Source: Phycisphaerae bacterium | GTDB lineage: Bacteria > Planctomycetota > Phycisphaerae > UBA1845 > PWPN01 | Reading direction: 5' to 3' | DNA length: 52,457 bases | Assembly (NCBI GenBank): GCA_018003015.1 | Contig: JAGNEZ010000048.1 | Location: 1-52,457, forward strand | Shown here: one piece after another, positions 43,920 through 50,267 of the stretch | Numbering within the stretch: the first letter of the stretch is position 1 | Layout of the letters: each line of letters starts with the position of its first letter | Notes under the pieces: generated by a model | The model's database searches: none | What the model was told of the DNA's origin: nothing | What the model saw: the letters and a program-made list of their open reading frames with translations, nothing else | Translations under genes and position numbers: made by a program

Positions 43920-45500
43920 CTACCGCGCGAACTCGGTTGCCCGCATTTCCCTGATCACCGTGACCTTCACTTCGCCCGGGTAGGTCATTTCCGCCTCGAT
44001 CTGCTTGGCGATGTCGATCGCGGTCTTGGTCGCCAGGCCGTCGGTTACCCGGTTGGCGTCGACGATCACCCGGATCTCGCGTCCGGCTTGTACGGCGTAC
44101 GCCTGCTTGACGCCGGGGTAGCGGCCGGCGATTTGCTCAAGCTGCTCCAGCCGCTTGATGTAACGTTCCAGCGATTCGCGGCGGCTTCCTGGCCGCGAAG
44201 CGCTCACCGCGTCCGCGGCGGCGACCAGCGGCGTGTAGACGCTGGTTGCCTCAATGTCGCCGTGGTGCCCCGCGATGGCGTTGATCACCTCCGGCCGTTC
44301 GTTGAACCGTCGGCAGATGTCTGCCCCGATCTGGGGGTGGCCGCCCTCGACCTCATGATCCACCGCCTTGCCGATGTCGTGCAGCAATCCGCATCGCCGG
44401 GCAAGGGTGCCGTCCAGGCCGAGTTCGTCGGCCATGATCTGGCACAGGAAAGCGACCTCCATGCAGTGCTGCAGGACGTTCTGCCCGTAACTGGTGCGAT
44501 AGCTCAGGCGGCCGAGCAGGTCGATCTGCTTGCGGTTCAGGCCGCCGACATTGGCCTCGACCGCGGCTTTCTTGCCCCGCTCGGTGATCTCGCGGGCGAC
44601 CTGTTCGCTGGTTTCCTGCACGATTTCCTCGATTCGGGTGGGGTGAATGCGGCCGTCCTGGATCAAGTGCTCCAGCGACAGACGGGCGATTTCCCGCCGC
44701 ACCGGATCGAAAGCGCTGACTACGACCACGCCGGGGGTATCGTCGACGATCACGTCCACGCCCGTGGCCTTCTCGAACGCCCGGATATTGCGGCCTTCGC
44801 GGCCGATCACGCGCCCTTTCATGTCGTCCGAGGGGATGTCGACCGTACTGACCGTGGCAGCGCTGGTGTGTTCGGTGGCGTATCGCTGAATGGCGGTGAC
44901 GACGATCTCACGGGACTTGGCCTGGGCTTCCTCTTTGGCCAGATTGACCGTTTTCTGGACCATCTCGGCCGCATCATGTTCGACCTCGTCCTTCAAGCGG
45001 TTGAACAGGAGCTGCTTGGCCTCTTCGATGGACATGCCGCTGATCCGCTGCAGCTGCTCGCGCTGCTGCTTAAGAACCCGGCCGACCTCCTCCTCTCTCT
45101 GAGTCAGGCTCGTTTCACGATCCTTGACCCGCTGCTCGCCCTGCTCCAGGGCCCGTTCCTTGGTACTCAGGGTATCCAGCTTCTTGTCGAGATTGTCCGC
45201 GCGTTTCTCGAGCTTGCGTTCGAGTTCCTTGATTTCGTCCCGGTCCTTGGCGCTTTGTTTTTCGAACTCCTCCTGTTTCTGGATGAAGTGTCTCTCAGCG
45301 TTAACCTGGGCTTTCTCAACGATGACTTCGGCTTGCTTCTGCGCCTCGTTGACGATGCGCTCCGCTTCCTCGAGGGCGGCCACGCGGCGGCGTTTGCTCA
45401 ACACGGTCAACAGGCCCCAGCCGATGACCACGCCCGCCACAAAGTCGAGGATCCAGAGGGCGATCATCGCGGAGTTGTCCATCGCGATGGGCACTCCCAT
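43920..45500 (-). CDS. rny: Ribonuclease Y
   Basis: A 526-residue membrane-anchored endoribonuclease that starts mRNA decay. The ATG at 45500 has AAGGTGG upstream; an ATG 17 codons earlier is less likely. Residues about 12-32 form the N-terminal membrane anchor ([15 protein letters not shown]). A long coiled coil (about 40-190) follows. The KH domain contains [15 protein letters not shown], and the HD domain contains the metal-binding [12 protein letters not shown]. Domain order and length match the family. It is preceded by a gap of about 945 nt whose strong promoter reads into it. Confidence 0.96.
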
Positions 45501-46215
45501 GATTACCACCTTCTTCCTTATATGATCATCACCCGCCCCGCGAGTCAGCATCCGGCGAACTCATGCCGGCGCCCCGGACTCGGTTGAACCGCAAGGCAGC
45601 GATGCTATCCAGTGGGGGATCGGGAAGACGCAAGGAGGGAACCGCGTGGACTTCGCGCACGACCGAAGGCCGGGCGGCGCCACGATTTCAGGTGGACCAC
45701 CTGTCGGAGGCAGATCGTAACTCCCGCCGATACAACGGGATGAGCAGGCTCACGTCAGAGTCATCCGTTCGGGATACCGCACGAACCACACTCGGGTGCT
45801 AGGCATGAGAACGGTCACGCGTTACCCCTGTTGCTTCATCCTCACTCCGGTCATGACACGGGCGAAGAAGTCGCACTCTTGGCACTCTCCGGCGACCTTC
45901 GCCCTGACGCTTGCCTGTACCCTCGAACCGCCGCGACTGGCGGACACACGACGATGGCGCCTTCGTACACCTCCGGGCATCGCCCGTGTCATCCACGGCC
46001 ATCGCCCGACGAATACCTGAGCCCTCAGGCATCCGAGAAGACGCACTCAGCTTAACAAACGCTCCTCATGTCCGGTCGGTGGAGCCTTCTCTATCACCGA
46101 CCTCGATCCCCATAGGTTACGGCCACCGCCCGCGGCCTCCCTCGGTCTCGCGAAAAGCGGGCCACAACCTCTTGGAGAATAGGTGATTGCGCAACCCGTG
46201 CGCACTATTCACGCG
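45501..46215 (-). ncRNA. Candidate structured RNA or very long leader upstream of rny
   Basis: No credible gene is seen here, but a near-consensus promoter (46222-46249) starts transcription near 46215 towards rny. The predicted RNA has several hairpins: 46188-46204 (6 bp), 46074-46102 (perfect 8-bp stem), 46011-46034 (10 bp, four-base loop), 45975-46007 (14 positions, two mismatches), 45928-45943 and 45867-45900. No T-run terminator was found before rny, so it could be a leader of about 715 nt or a stable RNA processed from it. It does not show conserved blocks of RNase P RNA, tmRNA or SRP RNA, and 6S RNA could not be confirmed. Confidence 0.4.
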
Positions 46216-46221
46216 TCGTTC

Positions 46222-46249
46222 ATTATAAGTCAGGAATCCGGGACGTCAA
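46222..46249 (-). promoter_or_regulatory. Near-consensus sigma70 promoter reading towards rny
   Basis: Minus-strand TTGACG, 16 bp, perfect TATAAT: one of the strongest promoters in the window. It lies about 200 nt after the oxidoreductase stop (46446) and fires into the structured region. The 46250-46445 stretch shows nothing else. Confidence 0.62.
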
Positions 46250-46445: not shown

Positions 46446-49400
46446 TCACTGATCGTCACGGCGAGCCGCGGAGGGCAGCCGGCCCCGCTGGCAGCCGGCG
46501 AGGAGTCGCTCGGCCTTGGATTGGGCGGAGGCCATCTTTGGCCAGCGGATTTCGGCGTAGCCGGTGACCGATTCGACGCACCGGAGGGCCTCAAGGTAGG
46601 CGGCGTACTCCGTTTCAGTCGTCCAGGTGAAAGCATCGACCCGCTGTTCATACCACGCTAAGAAGGCTTGCTCACGGTGCCGCCAGTAGGGAATGATCCG
46701 CCGCAGGAAACGCATGTTGCGAAGGACATACAGTGTCCAGTGCGGTACCACGATGTCGATCTGCTTGCCGAAGAACCGCGGGTGGAACGTGCGTCGATAC
46801 CGCATCTTGTCGCCGTTGGCGGGGTTGACGTTGTAGCGTTGCCGGTCTCGGCGGCGTTTCTCGTAACTGGTCAGGAGGTGGGCGACGAAGAACTCGTCCT
46901 TGATCAGCATCAGCTTGGCCAGGTTCCAGATCACCGCCCGGGTAGCCGCGAAACCGTGCCGCTCGTCATCCGCCAGGAAGGTGCGGCGAACACGGTCTAC
47001 ATAGCGCCTCGCGTAGCTCAGGCCGCCCCAGTGAATAAGGTCATAGATGCGGATGGCGATGTCGCGCATCGTTTCTCGATCGAGTTCCCGGCAGGCCCGC
47101 AGCGTGGTGTAGGTCATGTGCTTGTAGGCCCGAGCGAGCTTGGTGTCGGGAAGCCGCCGGCTCCCCGTCGGTCCCGGCCGCTCGGAGCGAGGAAGTCTCC
47201 GACCGCCGCGAGTGGTCTTGCGGTCTGCCCGGAGGGCCTTCCGGCTGCCGAGCAGACGCATGTTGAGGTAGGCGGCCTTGGCGCGCACCGTTCTGGCCAG
47301 CGAACGGGACCGCGTGCTTCGCGATTCGCCGAGCCCGCTCGACTCACCGTCGGCCGCAGCCAGCAGGTCTCCTCGGCTGTCGGCGAAGAGATCGGCGAAC
47401 AGATCCGGTCGGCAGACGAGTTTTCGCCCTACGTCGAAGGCCCGCAGGTTCTTCTTGAAATCCGCCCGGATAGTACCGCGGATTCCCTCCTTCAGGGCAT
47501 CCAGCGAGACGGGAATGAGCCCGCGCTGCCAGGCGATTCCCAGCATGGTGATGTTCATGTACAGCTTGGTGCCGAAGATGCGTTCACACAGCAGCGACAC
47601 GCGGGCCGCGAAGTAGCCGTCCGGTCGGGTGGCCTTCCGCAGGCACAGCTCGAGGTACTCGACGTTGATTTCGTCCCGGCCCATGAGCGTTCGAATCGTG
47701 GGGCTGGCATCGGTGTTGACAACCACGGCCGTCCGCTTCGGGCTGGCCACGCGGAACTTCTGCCCGGCATCGATCGCCCGCACCGCCTCCAGCGGGTCCA
47801 TGCCGATGAGCAGGTCAGCCTTCCCGTACCCAACGACCATGGACGCCACCGGTTCGTTGGCCGGCGTGCCCGGCTCACGACCCCCTGGTGCCGAGGGGGC
47901 ATCGCTGCTGACCGCTGACTGCTGGCTGTTGGCTGCTCGGGTATACACAATCTGCGAGTAGACCGCCCCATTCCGGATCGCCAGACCCTTCTTGTCGCTG
48001 AACTGGACGTGGTAGCCTTCCTGCTGACCGGCCAGGACCAGAATGCTGCCCGCCGTGCCGATCCCCATGCCGCCGACTCCGGCCAGCCAGACTCGCCATG
48101 TGTCGCCTTTGAATTGGACGGGGACCTCGGGGATGTCCTCGAGGGCGATCTTGTGTCCCCGGGGCGTGGGCCGGCGCCGGCGGGTGATGATGACTTCCTC
48201 GAACGAGGGGCAAGCCTCGACTTTGGCACACGCCCCGTCGTTGACGCACCAGGACAGGTCGGTCTGCACCTTGGGGCCGTAGTCGGTGGGCACCACGGTC
48301 AGGCCCGGGCAACCGGTGTTGTTCGTGCACTCCAGGCAGTAGTCGCAGACCTCCGGGGTGACGTTCATGTGCACCTGGCGGCAGACAAAGCCGAACTTCC
48401 GCTGCTCGTTGCGCTGGGCCCTGAGCCGCCGACGGTTGAAGGTGATGCCGCACTCCTTGTCGGCGATGATGATCTTGACCCCGTCGGCCAGGATGGTCTG
48501 CTCGAGGGTGCGGTTGTATTCCTTGTGATTGTCCGGATCTGTCCGGATGACTGGACACTGCCCGCCGGTGATGGCCCGGACCATCTGCTCGATTTCCTGG
48601 GTGGGAATGGGGCGATTGAGCAGGTCGTTTGGTACGGAAGGCAGCGGCTGGTGGCCGGTCATGGCCGTCGTCCCGTTGGCCAGGATGATGTAGGTGATGT
48701 CCTGGCAGGCGGCTATCGAGTTGCTGATCGCGGTGAGGCCGGAGTGGAAGAAGGTCGAGTCGCCCATGAACACGACCTGCTTGTTATTGATGAACGGATC
48801 GATGCCGCTGCCGGTGCCGCCGCCCAGACCCATGCCGGAGTAGTTGTGCATGAGCTGGGAATTGGGCTCGAACATGAGCATTGTGTAGCAGCCCGTGTCG
48901 CCGTGAAAGACCAGGTCGACGGCCCCGCGGCCGTGCCGGCGACGCATGTAACCCTCGTCTGCGAATCGCCTCTTGATCTTCAGTAAAAGTCCGGACGAAT
49001 CGCGGTGCGGGCAGCCCGGGCAGAATGTTGGAGTGCGTGCCGAGATGCTCGCATCGAACTTAGCGGTTTCGGCAATGACCCGCAGCTCGGAGTCGATGGC
49101 CTTGGCCGCCTTGCGGGCCAGCGGTGACTGGATGGACCGCAGGAAGCGCCCGAGGCGATCGGTCACGATCGAGACGTTCAGGCCCTGGACCGACGGAAAT
49201 CCGCTCGCCTCCTGAGGGAATTGTTTGCCCCACAGTTGTGCGATGCGGCGGCCGCCGGCTTGCGCGTAATGAATCGCGAGTCCTGCCATCTGCTCCTCGA
49301 TGAACGACCGGCGTTCCTCGATGATGACCAGGTGCTTGAATCGGGCCAGGAGCGGCTCGATCTGCCGCGGGTTGAGCGGGTAGCTCACTGCCAGTTTCAG

Positions 49401-50267
49401 CACCGGCACGCTGTGCAGAAGCCCGAGATCACTCAGTGACTGGCGAACATATTGCCACGCCATGCCGCTGGTGACGATGGCAACCTCGTTCTGGCCGGGT
49501 ACGTCGTCGAGGCGGTTGAGGCCGAGCCGTTCGACTTCGCGGAGCAGTCTGTCGAGACGCTGGGGGAGGTCCAGCTCGCGGCGACCGGTCCGCGGAGGCA
49601 GGAGCACGCGGCTCTCGAGATCCAGCGTGTCGGTCTGCAGATCGAACCGGTGATTGGCGTTGGTCAGCGGGTAGTGGTTGGGGCAGCAGATCACCGATCC
49701 GCCACCGTCGGCCAGCGGCGTGGTCAGCACATAGCCCGTGTAGAGTCCTGAGGCCCGGGAGAGAGAGAAACCCGCACCGACGTAGTCCTTGATCTCCTGC
49801 GGGGTGCTCGGCTCGATGACGGGTACCTGGTGGTGCCGGAAGAGGAAGCGTGAATCGGCTGGGACCTGGGTGCTCTCGTTCCAGGGGTCGTCGCCGGCGA
49901 CGATGACCGCCCCGCCGTCGGCGTGTGGGCCGGCCAGATTGCCGAGGGCCAGCGCGTCGCTGGCCACGTGGAGCCCCACGCTCTTGAATGCGGCCAGGGA
50001 CCGGAGCGGTCCCATCTGGGAGCCATTGACCGCGGCCACCGAGAGGGCTTCGTTGTTGGCAATCCGGCCCTCGATGCCCCGTTCCTTGAGCAGGTCGGCC
50101 AGATCGGCAAGCACGTCGAAGAACGTGGCCACCGGCGAACCGGGGTAGCCGGTCAGCAGGTGCACGCCGCCCTCGGTCTCGAGGGCGCCTTTGACCAGCA
50201 ACTCGTTGCCGTTGAAGACATCGACGCCGGACTCACGCAGGAACTTGGATTGTGCCGTCTTGCTCAT
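46446..50267 (-). CDS. Indolepyruvate:ferredoxin oxidoreductase, fused alpha-beta type
   Basis: A 1273-residue single-chain enzyme that oxidatively decarboxylates aryl-pyruvates from aromatic amino acids to aryl-acetyl-CoA with reduction of an iron-sulfur acceptor. The N-domain opens with GNELLVKGALETEGG and TGYPGSP. FCPGCPHR (about 417) and GDTGCYTML lead to the TPP domain with FMGDSTFFHSG (about 503). A cluster region (about 642-690) has CDYCLECTNNTGC and CVNDGACAKVEAC. The gamma-type domain begins VWLAGVGGMGIGT (about 731). The last 300 residues resemble the C-terminal extension (DUF6537-type) of this group. A Ser/Ala/Gly-rich linker near residue 780 is encoded by heptamer repeats. The start codon has a weak ribosome site. 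Confidence 0.92.
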   Translation of the reverse strand: MSKTAQSKFLRESGVDVFNGNELLVKGALETEGGVHLLTGYPGSPVATFFDVLADLADLLKERGIEGRIANNEALSVAAVNGSQMGPLRSLAAFKSVGLHVASDALALGNLAGPHADGGAVIVAGDDPWNESTQVPADSRFLFRHHQVPVIEPSTPQEIKDYVGAGFSLSRASGLYTGYVLTTPLADGGGSVICCPNHYPLTNANHRFDLQTDTLDLESRVLLPPRTGRRELDLPQRLDRLLREVERLGLNRLDDVPGQNEVAIVTSGMAWQYVRQSLSDLGLLHSVPVLKLAVSYPLNPRQIEPLLARFKHLVIIEERRSFIEEQMAGLAIHYAQAGGRRIAQLWGKQFPQEASGFPSVQGLNVSIVTDRLGRFLRSIQSPLARKAAKAIDSELRVIAETAKFDASISARTPTFCPGCPHRDSSGLLLKIKRRFADEGYMRRRHGRGAVDLVFHGDTGCYTMLMFEPNSQLMHNYSGMGLGGGTGSGIDPFINNKQVVFMGDSTFFHSGLTAISNSIAACQDITYIILANGTTAMTGHQPLPSVPNDLLNRPIPTQEIEQMVRAITGGQCPVIRTDPDNHKEYNRTLEQTILADGVKIIIADKECGITFNRRRLRAQRNEQRKFGFVCRQVHMNVTPEVCDYCLECTNNTGCPGLTVVPTDYGPKVQTDLSWCVNDGACAKVEACPSFEEVIITRRRRPTPRGHKIALEDIPEVPVQFKGDTWRVWLAGVGGMGIGTAGSILVLAGQQEGYHVQFSDKKGLAIRNGAVYSQIVYTRAANSQQSAVSSDAPSAPGGREPGTPANEPVASMVVGYGKADLLIGMDPLEAVRAIDAGQKFRVASPKRTAVVVNTDASPTIRTLMGRDEINVEYLELCLRKATRPDGYFAARVSLLCERIFGTKLYMNITMLGIAWQRGLIPVSLDALKEGIRGTIRADFKKNLRAFDVGRKLVCRPDLFADLFADSRGDLLAAADGESSGLGESRSTRSRSLARTVRAKAAYLNMRLLGSRKALRADRKTTRGGRRLPRSERPGPTGSRRLPDTKLARAYKHMTYTTLRACRELDRETMRDIAIRIYDLIHWGGLSYARRYVDRVRRTFLADDERHGFAATRAVIWNLAKLMLIKDEFFVAHLLTSYEKRRRDRQRYNVNPANGDKMRYRRTFHPRFFGKQIDIVVPHWTLYVLRNMRFLRRIIPYWRHREQAFLAWYEQRVDAFTWTTETEYAAYLEALRCVESVTGYAEIRWPKMASAQSKAERLLAGCQRGRLPSAARRDDQ
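47904..47938 (+). repeat. Heptameric tandem repeat inside the oxidoreductase gene
   Basis: Five 7-base units (GCTGCTG, ACCGCTG, ACTGCTG, GCTGTTG, GCTGCTC) lie within the coding region and encode part of the linker NSQQSAVSSD. The reading frame is kept on both sides. Confidence 0.5.

Follow-up and report, generated by a model that had tools for sequence, protein, structure and literature searches.

The stretch between positions 46215 and 45501 (minus strand) of the window, the whole 52,457-nucleotide contig of a Phycisphaerae bacterium analysed here, appears to be the 5′ untranslated leader of rny, the gene encoding ribonuclease Y, most likely limiting the level of RNase Y in cis, a reading that we consider fairly probable. 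Sequence comparisons establish a promoter motif, the absence of a gene, selective constraint, conserved structure and a fixed position before rny. The conservation of promoter and position, the constraint, the folding specific to the sense strand and a covarying motif without Rfam match in the rny leaders of another order (families f21 and f28) together indicate that it is a new, fast-evolving structured rny leader. The features of the region are the following:

46222-46249, minus strand: predicted sigma-70 promoter TTGACG-16-TATAAT (16-nt spacer), from a motif scan
45501-46215, minus strand: rny 5′ leader RNA of about 715 nt, gene-free, of low divergence, without credible ORF, terminator, Rfam match or tRNA
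46183-46212, minus strand: 5′ hairpin P1, GUGA..UGCGCA-CGGGU-UGCGCA..UCAC; a hairpin is found at the equivalent position throughout the order, its stem sequence varying
46074-46081 with 46095-46102, minus strand: hairpin P2, perfect 8-bp stem GGTCGGTG/CACCGACC, immediately upstream of the purine motif, present in the sequence
46062-46067, minus strand: purine linker GAGGAG (order consensus AAGGAGA) between P2 and P3, from motif enrichment in leaders of the order
46011-46034, minus strand: hairpin P3, stem GAUGCCUGAG/CUCAGGUAUUC, present in the sequence
43920-45500, minus strand: rny, ribonuclease Y, 526 aa, ribosome-binding site GGAAGAAGGTGG; TIGR03319, 675.7 bits (cut-off 454)

The ATG start codon of rny is located at 45500. 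The co-directional gene found 5′ of the leader encodes an indolepyruvate ferredoxin oxidoreductase whose alpha and beta subunits are fused into a single 1273-aa protein (46446-50267, minus strand); the C-terminal part of this protein, after about position 951, lies outside the IOR subunit models. The minus-strand TTGACG-16-TATAAT promoter announced in a preliminary description of this DNA was located at 46249-46222. With both strands of the entire window considered, it is the sole site scoring at least 11/12, the number of such sites per strand being 0.00 in first-order Markov copies, and none of its 28 sites has changed in a genome of the same genus (G001). The predicted transcript would start near 46215, and the stretch from the promoter to the rny start is a gene-free interval of 722 nt on the minus strand.

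The preliminary description had seen neither a credible gene nor a T-run terminator ahead of the RNase Y start, and both observations were borne out. Ten ORFs of at least 40 aa can be drawn in the leader; none of them exhibits protein-level constraint relative to the same-genus genome or has convincing matches in the leaders of relatives (a single hit, E 0.01, is at chance level), and no start or peptide is conserved among the small ORFs, including those that follow AAGGAG. A small protein-coding gene was rejected, since no ORF is conserved with protein-level constraint. Searches of the leader for intrinsic terminators, tRNA and tmRNA detected none. Membership of a known RNA family, above all 6S RNA, had also been raised, and the Rfam searches speak against it: the leader of the window matched nothing at the gathering score or at E ≤ 5, no planctomycete rny leader was matched among 20 loci of the order and Acidobacteria at gathering or relaxed E-values, and no rny leader was matched among 20 loci of other orders. 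6S RNA (RF00013) was rejected as the identity of the leader, there being no leader match at E ≤ 5 and 6S being encoded elsewhere in 30 of the 41 genomes of relatives. An rne5 or rne-II element was likewise rejected, without a match to the Rfam covariance models and with rny, not the RNase E gene, downstream. A riboswitch would be expected to retain an aptamer core conserved in sequence across the order, where only the promoter, the short AAGGAGA motif and the ribosome-binding site are conserved between genera, and an intrinsic terminator as expression platform, absent from the window and found in 17 of 78 leaders (16.8 expected by chance).

Two side observations concern 6S RNA. It was not found at E ≤ 1 in six genomes of family f1 (G000, G001, G003, G009, G011 and G012), while sister genera have it, which may reflect divergence or absent contigs. 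Moreover, three loci, two from Acidobacteriota and one from Aminicenantes, have 6S RNA immediately 5′ of rny and in the same orientation (L024:3758-3935, L025:2972-3149 and L029:3695-3872).

Comparison with the same-genus genome (contig JAKLEZ010000011.1, locus L002), which aligns along most of the window, revealed 34 differences among the 722 sites of the leader (4.7%), versus 44 of 195 (22.6%) in the stretch immediately upstream of the promoter and 41 of 261 (15.7%) at fourfold-degenerate sites of rny (Fisher p = 9e-13 and 8e-8, respectively). Since the leader diverges less than both of these references, it is under purifying selection, which sets in sharply at the promoter and continues up to the start codon, with no change in the final 120 nt; the leader is functional. 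At larger distances the similarity of leader DNA is lost: a search in 61 relatives returned the same-genus genome as the sole real match, and leaders of different genera do not align.

When folded as a whole, the 723-nt region outperforms its dinucleotide-shuffled versions on the minus strand (z −3.2, 20 shuffles) but not on the plus strand (z −0.7). In the pair formed with G001, windows starting 60, 120 and 180 nt downstream gave z-scores of −1.2, −1.8 and −3.2; single-window fold z-scores are modest. Two hairpins pointed out in the preliminary description are present. In the 8-bp stem at 46074-46102, pairing is maintained at both positions that vary in the same-genus genome, where G-C is replaced by G-U and U-A by U-G; in the hairpin at 46011-46034, it is the loop that has changed. 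Across the order, the hairpin that follows the −10 box has a mean fold z of −1.14 over 73 leaders, and structure fades after about 220 nt. The motif AAGGAG occurs at 90-270 nt in 27 of these 73 leaders, whereas a control stretch taken from them contains it in one of 73. Around the AAGGAGA motif in 37 genomes, the mean z versus shuffles is −1.04 for the preceding 50 nt and −1.54 (59% below −1) for the following 50 nt; stretches farther away mostly fold no better than shuffles. The AAGGAG itself is not left unpaired to a greater extent than when its flanks are shuffled.

Alignment of the AAGGAG domain by sequence only with MAFFT, followed by RNAalifold, produced no consensus in any family, as the arms are too divergent, and genus-level alignments yielded mixed structures with many broken pairs. 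For the latter reason, up to 18 close-pair alignments (101 windows) were folded against column-shuffled copies on both strands. The 5′ domain exhibits a mean z of −1.53 in sense versus −0.51 in antisense (p = 0.0001); farther down the leader, the values are −0.81 and −0.40 (p = 0.06). The helices are therefore not lost in relatives, the outcome that would have told against the initial proposal: sense-strand folding and hairpins flanking the motif persist. By these sequence criteria, the architecture of the first ~240 nt, composed of a hairpin, a second hairpin, the AAGGAGA linker and a third hairpin, is kept between genera.

The arrangement of promoter, leader and rny is conserved in the order. 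Among rny upstream regions from 100 genomes (at least 900 nt each), a sigma-70 site of at least 10/12 located 457-1125 nt before rny is present in 73 of the 80 genomes outside family f4 (12/12 in f1, 3/3 in f2, 1/1 in f5, 1/1 in f6, 14/15 in f7 and 42/48 in f8), nearly always with a 16-nt spacer; 1.75% would be expected by chance, and the reverse strand gave 4/100. In family f4, a single genome out of 20 satisfies the same definition. In most members of f4, a TATAAT or TATACT that lacks an accompanying −35 box is located about 340-450 nt before rny; in f4 upstream regions such as L130, L132 and L134, TATAAT is found ~400 nt before rny, often with CTGGCG upstream, and is followed by GGTGACGATGGTTGCG. 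Family f4 thus seems to have another promoter type and a shorter leader. Inside 78 leaders, neither second promoters (4 at 9/12 versus 9.1 expected) nor the terminators counted above are more frequent than expected by chance; hence, rny seems dependent on the distal promoter and the RNA should read through into rny.

In other orders of the class, a TTGAC promoter is located 434-839 nt before rny in 58 of 80 genomes (control, 3.8%), including 25 of the first 40 genomes. A looser survey of rny in other planctomycete groups and other phyla (L006-L032) revealed no regular pattern. The rny leaders of families f21 and f28, which belong to another order, share the motif ACAYCG-stem-GGGCGAAAGGC-stem-GNCAAGUCC-stem-CGGUGAAUA. 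A first covariance model, built from 11 f21 and f28 sequences and excluding f25, recovered all five f25 leaders at the correct place and strand (E 1e-4 to 0.03). In the resulting alignment of 16 sequences (loci L205-L207, L216, L217, L221 and L223-L232), 13 of 19 pairs exhibit compensatory double changes. Pairing holds in 90% of the cells, versus 27-41% after sliding the partner by 1-3 columns, although fitting the alignment to the model works in favour of this result. The motif has no match in Rfam at E ≤ 1 (loci L205-L207, L217 and L221 included). A second model, run on 119 genomes of the phylum, gave two hits: an rny leader in an f21 genome and, weakly (E 0.056), a site in another genome with no rny in the 3.1 kb around it.

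The f21 covariance models gave no hits in the window or in the leaders of its order, so that homology between the orders is argued from position, promoter and architecture. The leaders have a common position and probably a common function; we do not claim proven sequence homology. Other families present conserved blocks of their own. The rny leaders of f17 (L196, L198, L199 and L235-L248) contain the strongly conserved blocks GACGGCCGAG..GGCCGUC..AGCGGCGUUC, CGCCC..GGG..AAAGGGCG and GAGGCCUUCGGGUCAUA, which probably correspond to a larger structured core, and those of f11, f20, f22 and f24 carry a AUAGAUUGA block at a consistent place in all four families.

The preliminary description had left the choice between a new stable RNA and an autoregulatory leader cleaved by RNase Y. 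The promoter conserved in 73 of 80 genomes and the lack of enrichment in second promoters or terminators provide good support for a leader that continues into rny, and far more speaks for a leader than for a separate stable RNA. The latter would be a trans-acting RNA formed by the 5′ domain, cut from or co-transcribed with the rny mRNA, its synteny with rny being a regulatory convenience comparable to that of 6S in Acidobacteria. The concentration of structure in the first ~240 nt behind a very strong promoter, the large conserved cores in the leaders of other orders and the adjacency of 6S and rny in the three Acidobacteriota/Aminicenantes loci would fit such an RNA. We nevertheless consider it unlikely: terminators are not enriched, rny has no second promoter of its own, the constraint continues through the invariant last 120 nt up to the rny start, and 6S itself lies elsewhere in 30 of 41 genomes of relatives. 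Far less credible is the idea that this is simply a long stretch of ordinary intergenic DNA, with a promoter that arose by chance and the hairpins usual in GC-rich sequence. GC-rich sequence does fold readily and no DNA similarity is left between genera, but the recurrence of the promoter, the constraint relative to synonymous sites and the specificity of the structure for the sense strand contradict this explanation.

Control of a leader could also lie not with RNase Y but with another factor, e.g., CsrA or RNase E/G. CsrA binds ANGGA, which AAGGA fits, hence its place among the candidates; all of the 15 genomes tested encode it, and 14 of them, the source genome included, encode RNase E/G. 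The leaders show a strong enrichment of AAGGAG at a single place, between hairpins, and AAGGA is also found at many rny ribosome-binding sites. However, the AAGGAG is located between hairpins and not in a hairpin loop, shows no unusual exposure, can be recognised in roughly half of the leaders only and lies several hundred nucleotides from the ribosome-binding site, and the f21 motif lacks it. Control by another such factor appears still less likely than a separate stable RNA. As a side observation, RNase E/G (G000:C16:25238-26050 and its counterparts in relatives) is present alongside RNase Y in 13 of 15 genomes.

Returning to the leader controlled by RNase Y, we infer that it is transcribed, cut or processed by this enzyme and involved in feedback autoregulation. 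Transcription from the strong housekeeping promoter would begin near 46215 and reach rny after about 715 nt. Within the first ~240 nt, the RNA would fold into the 5′-terminal hairpin, the second hairpin, the AAGGAGA-type purine linker and the third hairpin, the remainder being less structured. Abundant free RNase Y would bind or cut the leader, and the rny mRNA would be lost; when RNase Y is busy, the leader would survive and rny would be translated. The cutting enzyme would be RNase Y; RNase E/G is also encoded in the genome. A broader proposition, which we put forward tentatively as somewhat short of an even chance, is that these leaders form a class-wide Phycisphaerae family of large structured RNAs, located between a dedicated promoter and rny and with family-specific covarying cores outside known families, that act as direct sensors of RNase Y activity or are also released as stable RNAs. 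If so, the RNase Y sensor would be an independently arisen planctomycete counterpart of the rne sensor. The leader RNA being absent from Rfam, it is currently missed by genome annotation; it provides a concrete RNA and a covariance model for tests in a phylum whose RNA biology has hardly been studied.

Feedback control of a decay nuclease, like that of the rne and Bacillus rny leaders, is most plausibly the function by analogy. The rne5 element (Rfam RF00040) of the rne 5′ UTR mediates such feedback. RNase E of E. coli limits its own synthesis via a leader stem-loop (cited in PMC10303841), and an rne-II motif (RF01756) is also listed (PMC2864571). The planctomycete leader resembles rne5 and rne-II in being a conserved structured leader on the mRNA of a decay-initiating endonuclease, but the enzyme and the phylum are different, and the planctomycete leader is longer, faster-evolving and without Rfam match. 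The likeness to 6S RNA is limited to strong structure and to the position directly upstream of rny that 6S occupies in some Acidobacteriota; the leader differs in having no RF00013 match at E ≤ 5, and most relatives encode 6S elsewhere. The mRNA stabilisers of B. subtilis, aprE and the polypurine elements with a 5′ stem-loop and Shine-Dalgarno-like sequence (cited in PMC10303841), similarly combine a 5′ hairpin with an AAGGAG-type sequence not followed by a gene; here, the motif is located about 150 nt from the 5′ end, between two further hairpins.

The closest parallel is found in B. subtilis, where RNase Y restrains its own synthesis by cleaving the 164-nt 5′ UTR and the early ORF of rny; the first 50 nt of this leader are AU-rich with one stem-loop, and the control involves RNase J1 (PMC10303841). 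Both cases concern the same gene, an untranslated leader upstream of rny and a proposed control of the RNase Y level in cis, and a predicted promoter with its leader is located directly upstream of rny here as well. No RNase J above the family cut-off was detected in the 15 genomes tested, that of the source included, so that the 5′-exonuclease step of the B. subtilis mechanism is absent as such; with RNase E/G and CsrA present, the cutting partner or binder may differ from that of B. subtilis. In contrast with the 164-nt B. subtilis leader, AU-rich in its 5′ part, the planctomycete one is about 715 nt long, GC-rich and multi-hairpin, and it is far longer than the known rne or rny leaders. Among decay nucleases, E. 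coli rne and, more recently, B. subtilis rny have feedback leaders that are described in detail; the conservation of a much longer structured rny leader throughout a planctomycete class suggests that the control of the main decay nuclease via its own mRNA has evolved repeatedly.
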